Source: Rahnella sp. AA | GTDB lineage: Bacteria; Pseudomonadota; Gammaproteobacteria; Enterobacterales; Enterobacteriaceae | Length of the DNA: 64,000 bases | Assembly (NCBI RefSeq): GCF_002834385.1 | Contig: NZ_PITQ01000005.1 | Location: 310,001-374,000, forward strand | Direction: 5' to 3' | In this document: positions 23,219-32,287 of the stretch, one piece after another | Layout: each line of letters begins with the position of its first letter | Numbering within the stretch: the stretch's first letter is position 1 | Notes under the pieces: model-generated | The model's database searches: none | What the model saw: only the letters and a program-made list of their open reading frames with translations | Told to the model about the DNA's origin: nothing | Translations under genes and position numbers: made by a program

Positions 23219-26200
23219 TTAAACCTTTTCCACGTTAACCAGGAACGCCTTGAACTCCGGCGTTTGCGAGTTAGCGTCGCCGACTGATGGCGTCAGCGTA
23301 TTGGCCAGATAACCTTTACGCGTCGCACCTTCAAAACCCCAGTGACACGTGATGCCGATGGTATCGACATGTTTGCCGTCGATGGTCAGCGGGCGGATGC
23401 GTTTGGTCACCACGGCTTTCGCCACGATAAAACCGCGTTTCGAGGAGACTTTAATCTCATCGCCCTGAGCGATATTTTTCGAGGCGGCAAGACTTTCGCC
23501 GATCTCGATAAACTGCTCAGGCTGCGCGATGGCGTTCAGCAAGGCGTGTTTGGTCCAGTGCCGGAAAAGTTCGGTGATCGAATAGGTGGTCGCGACGTAC
23601 GGAAAATCTTTGGCAGTGCCCATATTCGGTAAATCGCTGGCAAAAATGCGGGCGACCGGATTGGAAATCACGTTCGGGTGCAGCGGGTTGGTGCCAATCG
23701 GTGATTCGATCGGTTCGTAATGCTCCGGGAACGGGCCATCGGCCATTTTGTCGGTCGCAAACAAACGCCCGACGCCTTCCTGTTGCATGATGAACGGCCC
23801 GACGCCGCTGCCAGGCGCGGCGGTGCTGTAATCAGCCACGTCGAAACCGGTCCATTTCGCGCCATCCCAGCGGATGATTTCGCGTTTTGGATCCCACGGC
23901 TGGCCCTGCGGGTCAACGGAGGCGCGGTTATACAGAATGCGGCGGTTCAGCGGCCAGCTCCATGCCCAGCCGGACGTGCAGCCCAGACCGGACGGATCGG
24001 CGTTATCGCGGCGCGCCATCTGGTTACCGGCTTCGGTCCAGCTGCCGGCGTAAATCCAGCAGAAACTGGCGGTCGAACCGTCATTTTTCAGGTGCGCAAA
24101 GGTGGAAATCTGCTGGCCTTTTTTCGCCAGAATATTGCCCTGATCGTCGTGGATATCCGCCAGCGCTTTGCCGTTGGCTTCACGGGCGATTTCTTCCGGC
24201 AGCGGGTCAAGCGGATCCTGATAATCCCACGCCATGTTCATCACCGGCAGCGGATTCGCCCCGCCTTCTTTCCGGTACAGCTCGCGCAGTTTCATGAACA
24301 GACGTGCAATGATTTTGCCGTCGTGCAGCGCTTCACCCGGTGGCTCAGACGCCTGGAAGTGCCATTGCAGCCAGCGGCCGGAGTTCACGATTGAGCCATT
24401 TTCTTCCGCAAAACAGGAAGACGGCAGGCGGAACACTTCGGTCTGAATATCGGCGGTTTGCACGTCGTTCATCGCACCGTGGTTCTGCCAGAAGTTCGAA
24501 GACTCGGTCACGAGCGGGTCGATCACCACCATGTATTTCAGTTTTGAAAGCGCGCGCGAGGATTTGTTTTTATCCGGGAAAGCCGCCAGCGGGTTGAAGC
24601 CCTGAACGATATAGCCGTTGAGTTTGCCCTGAGTCATCAGCTCGGCCTGTTGCAGCACGTCGTAGCTTTTGTCCCATTTCGGCAACCAGTCATAACCCCA
24701 GTCGTTGTCCGCCGTGGCGTGTTCGCCCCAGAAACTTTTCATCATGCTGACGAAGAAGTTCGGCGTGTTTTTCCAGAAGTTAACCTGATTTTCGACCAGC
24801 GTTCCCGGCGTAATTTGTTTCAGGTAATCAGTAATATTGGTTTGTTTCTCAGATGGCAGCGGCATGTAGCCCGGCAGATTGAGCGACAGCAAACCGAGAT
24901 CGGTATAACCCTGAATATTCGAGTGGCCGCGCAGCGCATTCACGCCGCCACCGGGCATGCCGATATTGCCGAGCAGCAGCTGAATCATCGCCGCACAGCG
25001 GATGATTTGCGCGCCGCCTGTGTGGTGCGTCCAGCCCAGTGCATAAAGGATGGTGGAGGTTTTATCGCGCGCGCAGGTTTCCGCCAGAATCGAGCTTATC
25101 AGCAGGAAATCTTCTTTCGACGTGCCGCACAGGCGTTCGACCAGTTCAGGCGTATAACGGGAAACGTGCTCTTTCAGCAGATTCCAGACACAGCGCGGGT
25201 CTTGTAACGTTTTGTCCTGTTTCGCGATGCCCTTTTCATCGAGCTGATAATGCCAGCTGTCTTTGTTGTAGGCTTTTTTCGTGGCGTCGAAACCGCTGAA
25301 CAACCCGTCGTTAAAGGCATAATCTTCACGCACCAGCAGGCTGGCGTTGGTGTATTCCCTGACATATTCGGTCTGAATTTTATTGTGCGTAATCAGGTAA
25401 TTAACCATGCCTAGCAGGAAGGCGGTGTCGGAACCGGCGCGGATTGGCGCATAAATATCGGCTACGGCGGCGCTGCGGTTAAAGCGTGGATCGACAACAA
25501 TGACTTTGGCGTTATTTTTGGTTTTGGCTTCGATCACCCATTTGAATCCGACCGGGTGGGCTTCCGCCGCGTTACCGCCCATAATCAAAATGACGTTAGC
25601 GTTTTTGATATCCACCCAGTTGTTGGTCATCGCGCCGCGCCCGAAACTCGGCGCTAAGGCGGCAACGGTCGGCCCGTGGCACAGGCGAGCCTGGCAGTCG
25701 ATGGCGACCATACCCATTGCGCGGGTGAATTTTTGATCCAGCAGACCGGTTTCGTTACTGGCCGCAGACGAGCAGAGCATTCCGGTGGTCAGCCAGCGGT
25801 TGACCGTCACGTTGTTCTCATTTTTCTCCACAAAGTTGGCGTCGCGGTCATCTTTCATCAGGCGGGCGATACGGGAAATCGCCTCGTCCCAGGTGATGCG
25901 CTGCCATTTATCCGAGCCCGGCGCACGGTATTCCGGGTATCTCAGACGGCCTTCGCTGTGAATATAATCCAGTACACCGGCCCCTTTCGGGCACAGCGAG
26001 CCACGACTGACCGGGTGATCGGCGTCACCCTCAACATGGAAGATATTCTCGGTGACATTTTTCGCACCGTCACCCTGGCTGTAAATCAGCATTCCGCAGC
26101 CGACTGAGCAGTAGGTGCAGTTGTTGCGGGTTTCACGCGAACGGAGCAGTTTGTATTGGCGGGTTTCCGCCAGCGCCAGCGTCGGGGCGAACCCTAATAA

Positions 26201-26266
26201 CGCGGCTGTTGTACCGGCCATTCCGCCCGCACAGATTTTGAATAATTGTCTTCTGCTGACCTGCAT
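23219..26266 (-). CDS. fdoG: Formate dehydrogenase-O alpha subunit, cysteine form
   Basis: 1015-aa periplasm-facing molybdenum (bis-MGD) catalytic subunit that oxidises formate to CO2. It begins with a Tat signal (MQVSRRQLFKICAGG), followed by the 4Fe-4S motif NCTYCSVGCG. E. coli FdoG is 1016 aa with selenocysteine 196 in ARVUHGPT. Here residue 196 is cysteine, ARLCHGPT, encoded by TGC at 25679-25681, so no UGA recoding is needed. The conserved active-site His/Arg context is retained. The start MQVSRR was chosen over an in-frame upstream start because it matches the family and leaves the Tat motif at residue 4. Confidence 0.97.
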   Translation of the reverse strand: MQVSRRQLFKICAGGMAGTTAALLGFAPTLALAETRQYKLLRSRETRNNCTYCSVGCGMLIYSQGDGAKNVTENIFHVEGDADHPVSRGSLCPKGAGVLDYIHSEGRLRYPEYRAPGSDKWQRITWDEAISRIARLMKDDRDANFVEKNENNVTVNRWLTTGMLCSSAASNETGLLDQKFTRAMGMVAIDCQARLCHGPTVAALAPSFGRGAMTNNWVDIKNANVILIMGGNAAEAHPVGFKWVIEAKTKNNAKVIVVDPRFNRSAAVADIYAPIRAGSDTAFLLGMVNYLITHNKIQTEYVREYTNASLLVREDYAFNDGLFSGFDATKKAYNKDSWHYQLDEKGIAKQDKTLQDPRCVWNLLKEHVSRYTPELVERLCGTSKEDFLLISSILAETCARDKTSTILYALGWTHHTGGAQIIRCAAMIQLLLGNIGMPGGGVNALRGHSNIQGYTDLGLLSLNLPGYMPLPSEKQTNITDYLKQITPGTLVENQVNFWKNTPNFFVSMMKSFWGEHATADNDWGYDWLPKWDKSYDVLQQAELMTQGKLNGYIVQGFNPLAAFPDKNKSSRALSKLKYMVVIDPLVTESSNFWQNHGAMNDVQTADIQTEVFRLPSSCFAEENGSIVNSGRWLQWHFQASEPPGEALHDGKIIARLFMKLRELYRKEGGANPLPVMNMAWDYQDPLDPLPEEIAREANGKALADIHDDQGNILAKKGQQISTFAHLKNDGSTASFCWIYAGSWTEAGNQMARRDNADPSGLGCTSGWAWSWPLNRRILYNRASVDPQGQPWDPKREIIRWDGAKWTGFDVADYSTAAPGSGVGPFIMQQEGVGRLFATDKMADGPFPEHYEPIESPIGTNPLHPNVISNPVARIFASDLPNMGTAKDFPYVATTYSITELFRHWTKHALLNAIAQPEQFIEIGESLAASKNIAQGDEIKVSSKRGFIVAKAVVTKRIRPLTIDGKHVDTIGITCHWGFEGATRKGYLANTLTPSVGDANSQTPEFKAFLVNVEKV

Positions 26267-26412
26267 GAAAGACTCCTTCGCATCATTTGTTAACACATTG
26301 CTTTTCAAATTGGCGCTTTCCCCGTCAGAGGCGGAAGCGGTAAAATTAAGGCTGAATTACCCATATTTTTTGTACGGCTTATGTAGCCGGATTGTTTATA
26401 AGGTTATTGCCA

Positions 26413-27255
26413 ATGGATGTCCATCAAGTAAACGAACTGGGCGAAAAAGATGACAAAAAAGTGACTCAGATCATCGGAGCGCGCCAAAAAACGGTGATGC
26501 AGCGCGCCAGTCTGGATACGCCGGAAGAAGACTGGATTGCTGAAGAAGTGCCCGTCGCGCTGGTCTATAACGGGATATCGCACGTGGTGATGATGGCGTC
26601 GCCAAAAGACTTCGAAGCCTTCGCCCTGGGGTTTTCGCTCTCGGAAGGGATTATCGAATCGGCCGGCGACATTTACGGAATGGACGTCGCGCAAAACTGT
26701 AACGGAATCGAAGTTAATATTGAGTTATCGAGCCGACGCTTTGCCGGGCTGAAAGAACGCCGCCGCGCGATGGCGGGCCGTACCGGTTGCGGCGTCTGCG
26801 GCATCGAACAGCTGGGCGATCTGTTTCGCCCGCTCGCGCCGTTGCCGTTTACGCAAACCTTCGATCTGGCGAATCTGGACGCCGCGCTGCATCAGCTAAA
26901 ATCCGTTCAGACCATCGGCCAGCTGACCGGCTGCACGCACGCCGCCGCGTGGATCACACCGGAAGGCACGATGTCGGGTGGCTGCGAAGACGTTGGCCGC
27001 CACGTCGCACTGGATAAAATGCTCGGCCTGCGCGCCAGACAAAACGACTGGAACACCGGCGCCGCGCTGGTTTCAAGCCGCGCCAGTTATGAAATGGTGC
27101 AGAAAGCCGCAATGTGCGGTGTTGAAATCCTGTTCGCCGTCTCCGCCGCCACCACCCTTGCGGTAGACGTCGCAGAAAAATGTAACCTGACGCTGGTCGG
27201 TTTCAGCAAACCCGGCCGGGCAACGGTGTATACGCATCCTCAGCGGTTGCGGTAA
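26413..27255 (+). CDS. fdhD: Formate dehydrogenase sulfurtransferase FdhD
   Basis: 280-aa protein that transfers sulfur from IscS to the molybdenum cofactor before insertion into formate dehydrogenases. The active-site cysteines Cys126 and Cys129 are in [10 protein letters not shown], and other family stretches are [19 protein letters not shown] and [13 protein letters not shown]. It is divergent from fdoG, giving the usual fdhD/fdoGHI-fdhE arrangement. An AAGG at 26400-26403 supports the start MDVHQVN rather than the TTG further upstream. Confidence 0.95.
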
Positions 27256-27308
27256 ACTCAGCGCAGAATTTGAACAGTTCCCCTCAACTATAATTATAAG
27301 GAAATCAA

Positions 27309-28637
27309 ATGCGACAGCCGTACCGACTGGAAAGCATAACTCTCAGGGATGTGGGCGTATTTGAGAATACGCATTTTGATTTCCCACCGATTAAAAGCGC
27401 CGAGGCTGACGCGGAAAAGGCGGAGATTCATATCTTCACCGGCCCGAACGGCTGCGGTAAAAGTACGCTGCTGTATGCGCTGGCGGCGGTTTTTGAATAT
27501 ACATTCAGAAGTGAAAATTTACTTATCAGCCGATGTTCTAAGAATTCTTCAACAGTTGATTTCTCTTTTGCTTCACAGGCTAGCTCTATTTACTTAAAAA
27601 ATTATATTTATACTAAAAATAAAGGGCTTGGAATTACAGGACAAATGTTGGAGCCCTCCGAAAATGAGCAGTTAAAAAAATACCAACATTTTATGGTTAC
27701 AATGAACGGGGCAACTGATTTTGCAGCATTTGCCTATTCCGGCCAATCAAGTTCAAGTGATAAATTTGATGTCACTGCTATTGAAGAGATAACCGAGTCT
27801 CCCTTTGAAAAAGCTCTATCTTTCAATACAACAGTACGCCCTAAAATTGTCGCCCAATGGATTGCCCTTAATCGTTCCAATGCTGCATTAGCTTTGCAAG
27901 ATGGTGCACTTGAAGAAATTAAAAATTATGATCTGGCCCTCGAGCGCATCTCAAATTTCATCAAGACCGTCTGTGATTTAGACATCTCATTTCGTTTAGA
28001 AAGGAATCCGCGTTCTGTTTCTTTAATTATCAACGGCGAAATCGTCCCCTTTAACGTCCTGCCCGACGGTCTGAAATCCATTATCGGCTGGGTTGCTGAC
28101 CTCGCTCTGCGACTCGAAGCCATCCCATGGAAGGAAAGCCGCGATATCTTCTCGCAACCCATCATCTTATTCCTCGACGAAGTCGATATTCATCTGCACC
28201 CGAAATGGCAGCGCCGCATTCTTCCGGCGATTCAAAAATTACTGCCCAATGCGCAGGTTTTTGTTTCCACGCATTCGCCGTTTGTCGTGGGCTCAGTCGA
28301 AGATGCCTGGGTTTACCGGTTGCCCGATCCGCTGCGTCTGGTTTGCCGTGATCCGCATATTGCCGAAGTGATTACGCCGACGGAATCCGCAGGCGGGAAA
28401 AGTTATCAGGTGATTCTGGAAGAAGTGTTCGGCGTCGAAGAACAATTTGATGTTGAAACGGAAGAGCTATTAGAACAGCTCCGGCTTGCAAGAAATGGTT
28501 ATTTAGCTGGCACGCAGGATGACAATGAACTGAAGAAAACGGTTGAATTGCTGTTGGCCAAGAATAGCGAAGAATTGGAAGGTATTGTCCAGATGGAGAT
28601 GAGACAAGTTGCAAGGCGCAAACCTAAAGGGAATTAA
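27309..28637 (+). CDS. AAA/ABC-like ATPase, PtuA-like (Septu defence)
   Basis: 442-aa SMC/ABC-type ATPase (OLD/AAA_21-like). Walker A is GPNGCGKST (residues 45-53), a signature-like segment is LPDGLKSIIGWVADL, Walker B is ILFLDEVDIHLHP (near residue 287) and the H-switch is VFVSTHSPFVVGS. The C-terminal 90 residues are charged and helical. It is followed one base later by a TIGR02646-like HNH gene, the layout of Septu PtuA-PtuB. Bases 27500-28015 are distinctly AT-richer than the ends, suggesting foreign or mosaic origin. AAGGAAATCAA precedes the ATG. It could instead be another ATPase-nuclease anti-phage pair; no reverse transcriptase is adjacent, so it is not an obvious retron effector. Confidence 0.78.
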   Translation: MRQPYRLESITLRDVGVFENTHFDFPPIKSAEADAEKAEIHIFTGPNGCGKSTLLYALAAVFEYTFRSENLLISRCSKNSSTVDFSFASQASSIYLKNYIYTKNKGLGITGQMLEPSENEQLKKYQHFMVTMNGATDFAAFAYSGQSSSSDKFDVTAIEEITESPFEKALSFNTTVRPKIVAQWIALNRSNAALALQDGALEEIKNYDLALERISNFIKTVCDLDISFRLERNPRSVSLIINGEIVPFNVLPDGLKSIIGWVADLALRLEAIPWKESRDIFSQPIILFLDEVDIHLHPKWQRRILPAIQKLLPNAQVFVSTHSPFVVGSVEDAWVYRLPDPLRLVCRDPHIAEVITPTESAGGKSYQVILEEVFGVEEQFDVETEELLEQLRLARNGYLAGTQDDNELKKTVELLLAKNSEELEGIVQMEMRQVARRKPKGN

Positions 28638-28638
28638 T

Positions 28639-29220
28639 ATGTTAAAAATTACCAGACCGGCTTGCCCGCCGCTTTTAGCAACAAGGCATGCAAAGTGGGC
28701 GGATGATTTTGTGACCGCCAGAGCTGCAAATTCTAATTCGAAATTTAGCTGGCGATCCAAAAAAAGCTATCAGCAAATGCGTGAAGCGCTTTTAGCCATG
28801 ACGCTGAATCATTGCGCTTTTTGTGATGGAATCATCGGCATTGAAAGCCTGGAAACTGTTGAGCATTTTCAACCGAAAAAACATTTCCCAGCGCTGGCTT
28901 ATACGTGGGGAAATTTATTCCCCTGCTGCAACCGATGTCAGGAACAGAAGGGCGAGAAGTACAATCCTGCGCTGCTAAAACCCGATGACGTTCTCTACGA
29001 TTTTGAACACTTTTTTGTATGTAATGATGATGGTTCGATTGAACCTTCTGCCGCAGCAACTGTGCAGGATCAGGAAAGGGCGCAAGTAACGATCGACCTT
29101 TACGGGCTAAATCTGCCTGCACGCAAAAAACAACGCCGTACTCAGCAAAAGTTATATCGCAGCGGCGCACACGGTCTGTCTCTGGATGATTTGCCTTACC
29201 GGTTTTATCTTGCTGGCTGA
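28639..29220 (+). CDS. HNH endonuclease, PtuB-like (Septu defence)
   Basis: 193-aa putative HNH nuclease, with CAFC (59-62), EHFQPKK (75-81), WGNLFPCCNRCQEQKGEKYNP (90-110), the TIGR02646/PtuB pattern of paired cysteines around a central EH-P and N-L-x-x-C-C-x-x-C-x-x-x-K. Two CxxC pairs probably bind zinc. Start ATG is one base after the ATPase stop with AAAGGGA upstream, so it is co-translated. Together with the ATPase it likely cuts nucleic acid upon phage infection; this is inferred from the family. An in-frame TTG at 28609 would give a slightly longer protein. Confidence 0.75.
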   Translation: MLKITRPACPPLLATRHAKWADDFVTARAANSNSKFSWRSKKSYQQMREALLAMTLNHCAFCDGIIGIESLETVEHFQPKKHFPALAYTWGNLFPCCNRCQEQKGEKYNPALLKPDDVLYDFEHFFVCNDDGSIEPSAAATVQDQERAQVTIDLYGLNLPARKKQRRTQQKLYRSGAHGLSLDDLPYRFYLAG

Positions 29221-29293
29221 AGAATCAATGATTGAACCCTCTAAGCACTCAGTGCCTTTAGACAATTTAGGATTGTTTGCGATTATCTGGTTC

Positions 29294-29317
29294 TAAGCCC
29301 CGAATAACAGGGGCTTA
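29294..29317 (+). terminator. Possible terminator downstream of the ATPase-HNH pair
   Basis: Perfect 8-bp stem TAAGCCCC / GGGGCTTA with an 8-base loop, 73 bases after the HNH stop. It lacks a T run, so it is only a weak candidate; it could also be part of the sodA control region. Confidence 0.4.
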
Positions 29318-29345
29318 CGCATGGCCTTACGAAGTGTCTGGCTTA

Positions 29346-29364
29346 GATAATCATTTTCAATATC
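29346..29364. promoter_or_regulatory. Fur-box-like sequence upstream of sodA
   Basis: GATAATCATTTTCAATATC matches the 19-base Fur consensus at 15 positions, about 80 bases upstream of the sodA start. E. coli sodA is also Fur-repressed. Confidence 0.65.
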
Positions 29365-29444
29365 ATTTAATTAACTATAATGATCCGACTGATTACGCGG
29401 TGCTCACAAAGACGGTGCCGCCCTACACTATGGAGACGATGAAC

Positions 29445-30065
29445 ATGAGTTATTCACTGCCATCACTGCCTTACGCATACGACGCACTCGAACCGCATTT
29501 CGACAAAGAAACGATGGAAATCCATCACTCTAAACACCACCAGGCTTACGTTAACAACGCTAACGCCGCGCTGGAAAGCCTGCCAGAACTGGCTGCGCTG
29601 TCTGTTGAAGAGCTGATTGCTAACCTGGACAAAGTGCCTGCGGACAAGAAAGTTGCACTGCGTAACAACGCAGGTGGCCACGCTAACCACAGCCTGTTCT
29701 GGAAAGGCCTGAAAACTGGCACCACCTTACAGGGCGAACTGAAATCTGCGATCGAACGCGATTTCGGCAGCGTTGACGCTTTCAAAGAAGCTTTCGAAAA
29801 AGCAGCAGCAACCCGTTTCGGTTCTGGCTGGGCTTGGCTGGTTCTGAAAGACGGTAAACTGGCGGTTGTTTCTACAGCTAACCAGGACAGCCCGCTGATG
29901 GGCGAAGCAGTTTCAGGCGTTTCCGGTTATCCGCTGCTGGGTCTGGACGTTTGGGAACACGCTTACTACCTGAAATATCAGAACAAACGCCCTGATTACA
30001 TCAAAGCCTTCTGGGCTGTTGTAAACTGGGACGAAGCAGCAAAACGTCTGGCTGAAGCGAAATAA
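29445..30065 (+). CDS. sodA: Manganese superoxide dismutase SodA
   Basis: 206-aa cytoplasmic MnSOD, same length as E. coli SodA, converting superoxide to hydrogen peroxide and oxygen. Metal ligands are recognisable: His27 (MEIHHSKHH), His82 ([10 protein letters not shown]), Asp168 and His172 (LDVWEHAYY). The start MSYSLPSLP was chosen by alignment; an in-frame extension of 56 codons covers the promoter region and is not coding. Normally fdhD or fdoG neighbours are near sodA in relatives; here the ATPase-HNH pair intervenes. Confidence 0.97.
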
Positions 30066-30107
30066 TTTCGCTTTACCGCCCGTAGCGGGCACGATGTTTT
30101 TTGCAAG

Positions 30108-30133
30108 AGGCAGGTCTGTGACCTGCCTTTTTT
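30108..30133 (+). terminator. Rho-independent terminator after sodA
   Basis: Perfect 9-bp stem AGGCAGGTC / GACCTGCCT with a 3-base loop and a trailing run of T. Confidence 0.9.
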
Positions 30134-30252
30134 ATGTCTCGTTTTCATCCCTAAAACGTAAGCCTGATCACTGTATTTCAGCGAATTATCCTTCCCCCTT
30201 CCACCATTTTTAGACCGCCCTCTCATTAATCAAAAATACACCACAGATCCTA

Positions 30253-30280
30253 TAAAGTTTGCCGAAAAGACTACCGATAG
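30253..30280 (+). promoter_or_regulatory. FliA (sigma-28) type promoter for the second chemoreceptor
   Basis: TAAAGTTT, 12 bases, then ACCGATAG. The -35 matches the consensus completely and the -10 matches CCGATA of GCCGATAA. It lies about 64 bases upstream of the chemoreceptor start. Confidence 0.82.
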
Positions 30281-30343
30281 AACTTTCACAAAGGCGTCAC
30301 AAAATCGCTAACTTTTCGCAGGGATGTTTGACGGAGAAAAACT

Positions 30344-32287
30344 ATGGGCAACGGATCGGGTCTTTCGCAGTGGATGAATAATCTCAAAGTCGGCACTAAA
30401 CTCGGGCTCGGCTTCGGGTTGGTTCTTTTGATTGCCGCGGTGATCACCGCAGCCGGAATGATTAAGTTTAACGACATCAGCCAGCGCGCTGAAAAAGTTG
30501 ATTTCAGTAATCAGATGAATGCGTTGCTTAATGATGCCCGCCTAAGCCGCACGCTTTATCAGCTCAATTACGACCCCGCCTACCTCAAGCAAAATCAGGA
30601 CAAAATCAATGCGCTGTCACAGCTGATTGCACAGTCGAAAGACAAGCTGGAATGGGATGCGACCAGCCAGGCCGATCTCAATCAGGTGCCGGTAAAAATC
30701 CGGGAATACCAGGCCGCGCAGGACGCCTTCAAACAGGCAGTCGACAGAAAAGATGCCGTGCGTGCCAGCTGGAATCTTTCCGAAACCGAGGCCGTGGTGA
30801 AGCGCCTGCAGGAACAGCTGCGCGTAGAAGATGCCGATCCCTCTATTCGTCTTTCCCTTGCGGAAGTCGTTCAGAAACTGATCAGCGTGCGTTATTACGT
30901 GCGTGGCCTGTTGCTGAACATTAACAAAGAATCCGAAGCCACTTTACTGCAGGCTATCGACGATACACAGGCCAATGCTAAAAAGCTGAACGCGTTGCTG
31001 TTGCCCAATCAGCAGGCAACGCTGGCCCCGCTGATGACGGCGCTGGCGACTTACAAAAGCCACGTCGTCGCTTACATGCCAGCCTATGAAGATGAACAGA
31101 AAAACTCGCAACTTCTGTCGGTGAAAGCCACCGAGATGAACGCGCTGGTGGCAAAAATTTTCAAAAATGAACTGGATAACACACATCAGGATATTACCCA
31201 TGCACAGATGATCATGCTGGTGATTACGCTGATTGTGATGCTGGCCGGTATCCTGATTGCATGGCGAATTACCCGCCAGATTGCACAGCCAATCCGCGAT
31301 ACGCTGAAAACGGCTGAAGCGATTGCGCAGGGCGATCTGACTGCCGCGCGCACTACAACGCGCCGCGACGAACTGGGTATGCTGATGAACGCAGTGGCTG
31401 CGATGAGCCAAAATCTCAGCACGATGATTTATGAAATCCGTTCAGGCGTTTCGCAGGTTTCCCACGCGGCAGCTGAAATCGCCGCCGGGAACACCGATTT
31501 ATCCTCACGCACCGAACAACAGGCCGCAGCGGTTGAAGAAACCGCCGCCAGCATGGAAGAACTGAGCGCCACGGTGAAACAGAATGCCGATAATGCTCAT
31601 CACGCCAGCAAGCTGGCGAGCGAAGCATCAGGCACCGCAACACTCGGCGGCAAGCAGGTCGGCGAAGTCGTCGAAACGATGCAGCAGATTTCCGGCAGTT
31701 CAAAACGTATTGCTGAAATCACTTCTGTCATCAACGGCATTGCCTTCCAGACCAACATTCTGGCACTGAACGCCGCCGTGGAAGCCGCAAGAGCCGGTGA
31801 ACAAGGGCGCGGGTTCTCGGTAGTGGCTTCTGAAGTCCGCACGCTGGCACAGCGCAGTGCACAGGCGGCAAAAGAGATCGAAGGGCTGATTGCAGAATCA
31901 GTCGAACGGGTGAATACCGGTGCGAAGCTGGTGGAAAACACGGGTAACACCATGCAGGACATCGTGAAATCCGTCTCGCACGTCCGCGATATTATGGGAG
32001 AAATTGCGTCGGCCTCTGACGAACAAAGTCGCGGGATCAGCCAGATTTCTCAGGCAATTGTCGAGATGGACAGCACCACTCAGCAGAACGCCGCGCTGGT
32101 TGAGCAATCTTCAGCAGCCGCAGATTCTCTGGAAGATCAGGCCGCAACGCTGACGCAGGCGGTGTCGGTATTCCGTCTGGCCGATAACGGCAATATGCTG
32201 AAAGCACCGGCGTCCGGTGCGCTGCGCCGCCCGGTTCTCCCGGCAGTGCAGAATAAAACCAGCCAGGATAACTGGGAAACCTTCTGA
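30344..32287 (+). CDS. Methyl-accepting chemotaxis protein with NWETF tail
   Basis: 647-aa chemoreceptor. TM1 ([19 protein letters not shown]) near residue 20, then an approximately 245-residue all-helical periplasmic domain that is longer than a Tar-type four-helix bundle and fits a helical bimodular (HBM) layout, TM2, HAMP and the signalling hairpin with [20 protein letters not shown]. The C-terminal residues NWETF form the CheR/CheB-docking pentapeptide found in Tar/Tsr-type high-abundance receptors. Ligand unknown; HBM receptors bind organic acids. A good sigma-28 promoter lies upstream. GAGAAAAACT precedes the start. Confidence 0.93.

Follow-up and report, generated by a model that had tools for sequence, protein, structure and literature searches.

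We analysed a stretch of 64,000 nucleotides from Rahnella sp. AA (the window), whose assembly comprises 5.85 Mb in 34 contigs. Between fdhD and sodA the window holds two genes, ptuA and ptuB, and judged by sequence the pair is an intact type I Septu system, with a PtuA ATPase and a PtuB HNH nuclease and without a reverse transcriptase. The features of the locus, in window coordinates, are:

26392-27255, plus strand: fdhD, the left neighbour, with Septu directly 3' of it (PF02634, TIGR00129)
27256-27308, plus strand: gap between fdhD and ptuA, 53 bases, no promoter-like site listed
27309-28637, plus strand: ptuA, 442 amino acids, type I Septu ATPase (PDLC00281, 597 bits)
27309-27494, plus strand: ptuA codons 1-62, constant end containing Walker A
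27495-28142, plus strand: ptuA codons 63-278, exchanged central module, of which codons 63-136 are hypervariable
28143-28463, plus strand: ptuA codons 279-385, constant core containing Walker B and STHSPF
28464-28634, plus strand: ptuA codons 386-442, tail co-varying with PtuB (Spearman 0.81, 78 pairs)
28639-29220, plus strand: ptuB, 193 amino acids, HNH nuclease (PDLC00351, 237 bits; the profile begins at the ATG at 28639)
29221-29444, plus strand: rest of the fdhD-sodA intergenic DNA, 224 bases, counterpart of the 211-213 base interval in eight empty relatives
29445-30065, plus strand: sodA, the right neighbour (NF008177, 430 bits)

Because the gap behind fdhD is 53 bases and no promoter-like site is listed in it, ptuA is possibly co-transcribed with fdhD. 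The initial annotation had the two Septu genes overlapping. The ptuA TAA lies at 28635-28637 and the ptuB ATG follows one base later, at 28639; the apparent overlap stems from a TTG at 28609, and since the PtuB profile starts at the ATG, the genes abut without overlap. The rest of its description of the neighbourhood agreed with our results. The flanks are ordinary housekeeping DNA, in that the nine flanking window genes tested were metabolic, transport or chemotaxis genes (fdoG was named by eye), and three of these nine had no PADLOC match at 1e-15. The interval consists of ptuA and ptuB with 53 bases before and 224 after them, and therefore, as had been stated, no reverse transcriptase or integrase is adjacent. 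In the fdoG start region we also observed an Rfam FdoG1_thermometer match (window 26237-26427, minus strand) at 34.5 bits, below its gathering score of 50.

The protein families proposed from the letters alone were recovered by profile searches. PADLOC PtuA1 (PDLC00281) spans residues 2-440 of the ATPase at 597 bits (profile 1-444 of 448), and PtuB1 (PDLC00351) matches the HNH partner at 237 bits (profile 1-193 of 195), which also scores as a TIGR02646 protein (55.1 bits, cut-off 52.15). The expected ATPase motifs lie at residues 45-53 (GPNGCGKST), 287-293 (LFLDEVD) and 320-325 (STHSPF). Pfam detected AAA_21 and AAA_15 in PtuA and, below its cut-off, HNH in PtuB. Residues K51, D290 and E291 were invariant in an alignment of 10 PtuA rows, as were H76 and N92 in one of 9 PtuB rows; by eye we equated the latter with H75 and N91 of Septu EcB88. 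That E. coli system is a ptuA-ptuB pair reported to require its ATPase and HNH motifs for defence, with H75/N91 as the HNH residues and tRNA-Tyr as the target (PMC13096335). Compared by gene content and motifs, the two systems are both ptuA-ptuB pairs with ATPase and HNH motifs. The pair resembles type I Septu in its gene order and its Walker and HNH motifs, in matching the family profiles over their full length and in lacking a reverse transcriptase, and the block exchange in the PtuA middle described below is a feature of the alleles studied here. A single-sequence structure model of PtuA had a pLDDT of 39.3.

Two related systems were considered and rejected. The effectors of type I-A retrons (the PtuAB of Ec78/Eco7 and Ec83/Eco4) are related by weak matches of the pair to their PtuA and PtuB models and include solved relatives, but the interval contains no reverse transcriptase, an Rfam scan of 26000-30500 found no retron RNA, and the NCBIfam retron Ec78 PtuA and PtuB equivalogs scored 122.7 and 67.9 bits, under their cut-offs of 500 and 150. 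PARIS AriA resembles PtuA as an ATPase family, yet its model scored 83 bits against 597 for PtuA1, and the partner gene matches PtuB1. For a diversity-generating retroelement, a reverse transcriptase was looked for within the fdhD-sodA interval, and none was there.

The fdhD-sodA interval was inspected in each of 14 genomes of the genus, the source genome (G000) included. An intact Septu system was present in four (G000, G010, G007 and G006), a broken remnant in an interval of 1139 bases in one (G008) and a different gene of 513 amino acids in one (G002); the interval was empty, at 211-213 bases, in eight. The initial annotation regarded a non-defence family for the ATPase together with the same pair, at normal base composition, at this spot in all relatives as evidence against its proposal; the intact pair was found in 4 of 14. 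A PtuA search matched all 14 genomes, and beyond the interval it picked up other loci with weaker, partial similarity to the ATPase. Preserved in the G008 remnant are the constant start and a piece of a G006-type PtuB, together with a middle-like piece (best match G007, only 38% over 29 residues). The G002 gene (L049 1826-3367, minus strand) matched only fn3 in Pfam, and by eye its remainder is chitinase-like.

We also examined what lies 3' of fdhD in 20 genomes outside the genus, a non-random set picked by FdhD similarity or by membership of genus g126. In g126, hereafter the second genus, Septu lay directly 3' of fdhD in two of four genomes, with a next gene other than sodA, and the remaining two had no Septu after fdhD. 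Fifteen genomes of other genera had a short interval of 133-281 bases, and in another genus (G052, L091) the same spot holds a HigB-like toxin with an HTH antitoxin. The differing contents within the genus and the second genus with Septu 3' of fdhD support the suggestion that the spot is reused. At least 9 of 392 genomes in a family panel matched PtuA at 1e-40 (G000, G006, two of g126 and five more from four genera), and at least 2 of 394 in an order panel did so at 1e-60, both from the window's own genus; with at most four candidates scored per genome, both counts are lower bounds. Five ptuAB pairs in four genera (L060-L064) lie behind a gene identified by eye as nuoN. Because the pairs follow fdhD or nuoN, the subfamily occupies no fewer than two spots, both of them 3' of housekeeping genes.

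The middle of ptuA had been described as AT-rich, consistent with recent transfer or mosaic assembly. Windows of 300 bases from 27450, 27600 and 27750 indeed had 37.7, 37.7 and 40.0% GC, compared with 53-63% in fdhD and 54.0% at 28050-28349; most windows in ptuB and the 3' part of ptuA were likewise low, at 43-47%. In all six fdhD-locus alleles codons 63-136 had 32-39% GC and a GC3 of 0.27-0.32, and the N-module of these alleles had a GC3 of 0.45-0.63; in five nuoN-locus genes codons 63-136 had 36-55% GC. Since codons 63-136 are AT-rich in all six fdhD-locus alleles, the AT-rich patch is the exchanged module.

Comparison of G000 with its relative G007 separated the two readings of this patch. 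DNA identity in 100-base windows was 94-100% for starts 27053-27403, 39-71% for starts 27453-28053, and 84-100% for starts from 28103 onward through ptuB. Synonymous divergence (dS) was 0.11 in fdhD, 0.13 in sodA and 0.02 in ptuA codons 1-62, saturated in codons 63-136, 137-255 and 256-282, and 0.12, 0.04 and 0.15 in codons 283-345, 346-385 and 386-442; in PtuB it was 0.37 in codons 1-50 and 0.04 from codon 51. Faster protein change alone would not saturate dS in the middle, which therefore indicates replacement. A similar pattern was found in the second genus between G239 and G138, where dS was 0.29 in fdhD, 0.31 in ptuA codons 1-62 with no amino-acid change, saturated in codons 63-136, 1.46 in 137-255 and 0.68 in 256-282, and 0.29, 0.17 and 0.33 in codons 283-345, 346-385 and 386-442. 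Their PtuB was less tidy (0.25 in codons 1-50, 0.80 from codon 51). In G239 the ptuB frame (L058, L095) also diverges from its relatives near the C-terminus in a frameshift-like manner.

Fourfold sites gave the same picture. Identical and different sites numbered 91 and 6 in the ends against 16 and 29 in the middle for G000/G007 (Fisher p 3e-13), and 78 and 16 against 16 and 26 for G239/G138 (p 5e-7). No such difference was seen in the control pairs G000/G010 (91/9 and 78/14, p 0.27) and G170/G323 (54/34 and 66/27, p 0.21). A two-breakpoint scan placed the divergent segment at residues 63-278 for G000/G007, 63-260 for G239/G138 and 63-135 for G000/G006, with no permutation out of 300 reaching any of these results, and found weaker patches in the controls, at 243-278 for G000/G010 (1/300) and 19-38 for G170/G323 (3/300). 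Codons 1-62 contain 1 differing codon in G000/G007 and 10 in G239/G138, none altering the protein, and from codon 63 on nearly all codons differ in both pairs. The shared boundary at codon 63 may be the edge of a module, or merely the limit of the homologous end. Clear middle-only exchange was seen in these two pairs, one in each genus. Four genera of 3 or 4 genomes were checked for further allele pairs; only g10 had two carriers, which were used as a control, and a search in three more genera returned just genomes already in the set. Separately, PtuB codons 1-50 (window 28639-28788) were locally diverged even between G000 and G010, which share a PtuA middle (dS 0.55 and dN 0.134, compared with 0.25 and 0.018 in the rest of PtuB).

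We conclude from these comparisons of close relatives that recombination has replaced the central block of ptuA, from codon 63 to about codon 260-282, leaving in place the P-loop end, the core with Walker B and STHSPF, and codons 51 onward of PtuB. A like exchange, its divergence beginning at the same codon, took place in the second genus. Of the two earlier readings, mosaic assembly is therefore upheld by dS, fourfold sites and trees, and recent transfer of the whole gene is disfavoured, because in G000/G007 the ptuA ends and PtuB from codon 51 track the dS of fdhD and sodA and the middle does not.

We built trees from 13 sequences, using codons 1-62 and 283-385 as the ends and codons 63-255 as the middle. 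The ends tree grouped the six fdhD-locus rows (support 95/94) and placed G239 with G138 (89/86). The middle tree rejected both the six-row clade (p-AU 0.0025) and G239 with G138 (p-AU 0.007), placing G138 beside two viral-contig rows and G246 and G284 from the nuoN locus; the same groupings were rejected with codons 137-255 by themselves (0.008 and 0.005, respectively). Three rows of the middle tree are long branches. Because the middle tree does not reject G000, G010 and G007 together (p 0.31), the case for exchange within the source genus rests on synonymous divergence. Patchy presence (4/14) and the AT-rich middle could also be explained if the whole system had arrived recently and separately in each species, with no exchange of blocks. 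We disfavour this account and regard it as very improbable, as divergence in the ptuA ends follows that of the flanking genes but is saturated in the middle, the fourfold-site counts of the two parts differ, and the trees conflict; separate arrivals would need, each time, a donor that combined the same ends with another middle.

We found no donor of the window's middle among plasmid, phage, E. coli, viral-contig and genome searches. Apart from that of G010, the nearest middle is that of G006, whose DNA is 60% identical across codons 63-255 and 74% across codons 137-255. A plasmid collection had no PtuA match at 1e-50 and 21 records at 1e-12, the first-listed with 28.5% identity over 94%; a phage collection gave 5 records of 26-30% identity, and three ptuAB DNA queries had no match in complete E. 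coli genomes. Viral contigs contained two PtuA relatives (L098 and L099) and had no match to PtuB as a query. The L098 relative belongs to a ptuAB pair of the subfamily, carried on a viral contig of 36 kb that may be a prophage. Silent ptuA copies in the same genome were rejected as a source: a search with whole PtuA as the query, which could overlook an isolated middle of very different sequence, gave one true ptuA (1.9e-297) and three partial, weak matches (best 3.3e-7). A pattern scan of genome contigs returned generic ATPases, at 13 distant loci; in one, from Bosea (L065 2264-5305), a 1014-codon frame ends in a PtuA-like ATPase, with a stretch before it that by eye is SIR2-like.

Mean amino-acid identity over 78 pairs was 78% in PtuA codons 1-62, 20% in 63-136, 55% in 137-255, 92% in 283-345, 64% in 346-385 and 44% in 386-442, and 53% in PtuB. 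Among the matches listed were five solved relatives, in which the profile alignment covers the neighbourhood of the P-loop, resumes at about 207-234 and leaves out most of the middle. One explanation of the pattern is that the middle is weakly constrained and was exchanged without benefit. Codons 63-136 are on average 20% identical and vary in length, and homologous ends suffice for exchange. On the other hand, the frame was intact in 13 of 13 intact ptuA genes compared, and codons 137-255 retain many invariant residues; we consider exchange without benefit improbable.

Identity of the PtuA tail and identity of PtuB were correlated (Spearman 0.81, 78 pairs, uncorrected for relatedness), and thus tail and PtuB appear to vary together. 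On the same uncorrected basis PtuB gave 0.14 with codons 1-62, 0.13 with codons 283-345, and 0.31 and 0.28 with the middle. Between G006 and G000 the middle, tail and PtuB all differ strongly and codons 283-345 differ little (dS 0.26, compared with 0.66 in fdhD). Because tail and PtuB co-vary, and G006 differs in middle, tail and PtuB but little in codons 283-345, two parts seem to be exchanged as units, one being the middle and the other the tail together with PtuB. These data also bear on the idea that the middle sets the target of the effector, that is, which tRNA or DNA is cut, rather than detection. Different targets have been reported for PtuAB relatives (PMC11555353). However, PtuB co-varies with the tail and not with the middle, and from codon 51 the PtuB proteins of G000 and G007 are nearly identical (dS 0.04) despite different middles. 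We therefore regard target choice as unlikely.

The reading that we favour, and hold to be reasonably probable, is that the locus is an intact type I Septu system 3' of fdhD with a mosaic ptuA, whose central module is the recognition part, set within an ATPase core that stays constant. Under this model fdhD and the constant ptuA ends would serve as homology arms; the central module would face the phage, recognise its trigger and signal via the constant ATPase core to the HNH effector at the tail. The effector would then cut tRNA or DNA, a step carried over from studied PtuAB relatives. Retron Eco7 PtuAB is reported to deplete tRNA-Tyr, and another Septu to act on nicked DNA (PMC11555353). PtuAB of a retron is described as inactive inside the retron complex until infection releases it (PMC12887533). 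The passages available to us on PtuAB do not state the phage-detecting part of a stand-alone Septu. As a stand-alone Septu has no retron sensor, its own ATPase is a natural candidate for phage detection, and the hypervariable exchanged module between the P-loop and Walker B is a likely place for it. The central module probably sets recognition.

Target-domain exchange in HsdS of type I restriction offers a parallel, in which a variable recognition block is swapped between constant blocks. PtuA is like HsdS in having a variable block between constant ones; the protein families differ, and recognition is known for HsdS. By analogy, module exchange in PtuA might alter which phages are detected. 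More tentatively, we suggest that species share a pool of central modules through the fdhD, P-loop and Walker B arms, so that the chassis is re-aimed, with residues 63-136 as the phage-recognition surface. The exchanged middle could instead be the surface bound by phage inhibitors of Septu, with exchange serving as escape and the trigger sensed elsewhere. Escape would likewise keep the catalytic core constant (92% identity) next to a block that is hypervariable (20%), and escape and trigger recognition are equally compatible with the data; we judge escape rather unlikely as the explanation.

The system itself is already known as type I Septu. In the literature on Septu and PtuA, covered mostly as titles and abstracts and with few subscription papers, we found no report of PtuA mosaicism or block exchange. 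The exchange pattern points to the part of the ATPase that may decide what the system recognises. Because nearly everything but one ATPase block is common to both members of a natural allele pair, such pairs are ready-made chimeras, and comparing two such alleles would show directly whether the block sets phage range. Block exchange of one module is known from restriction specificity genes; if recognition by the central module is true, such exchange would extend to an ATPase-nuclease defence system.
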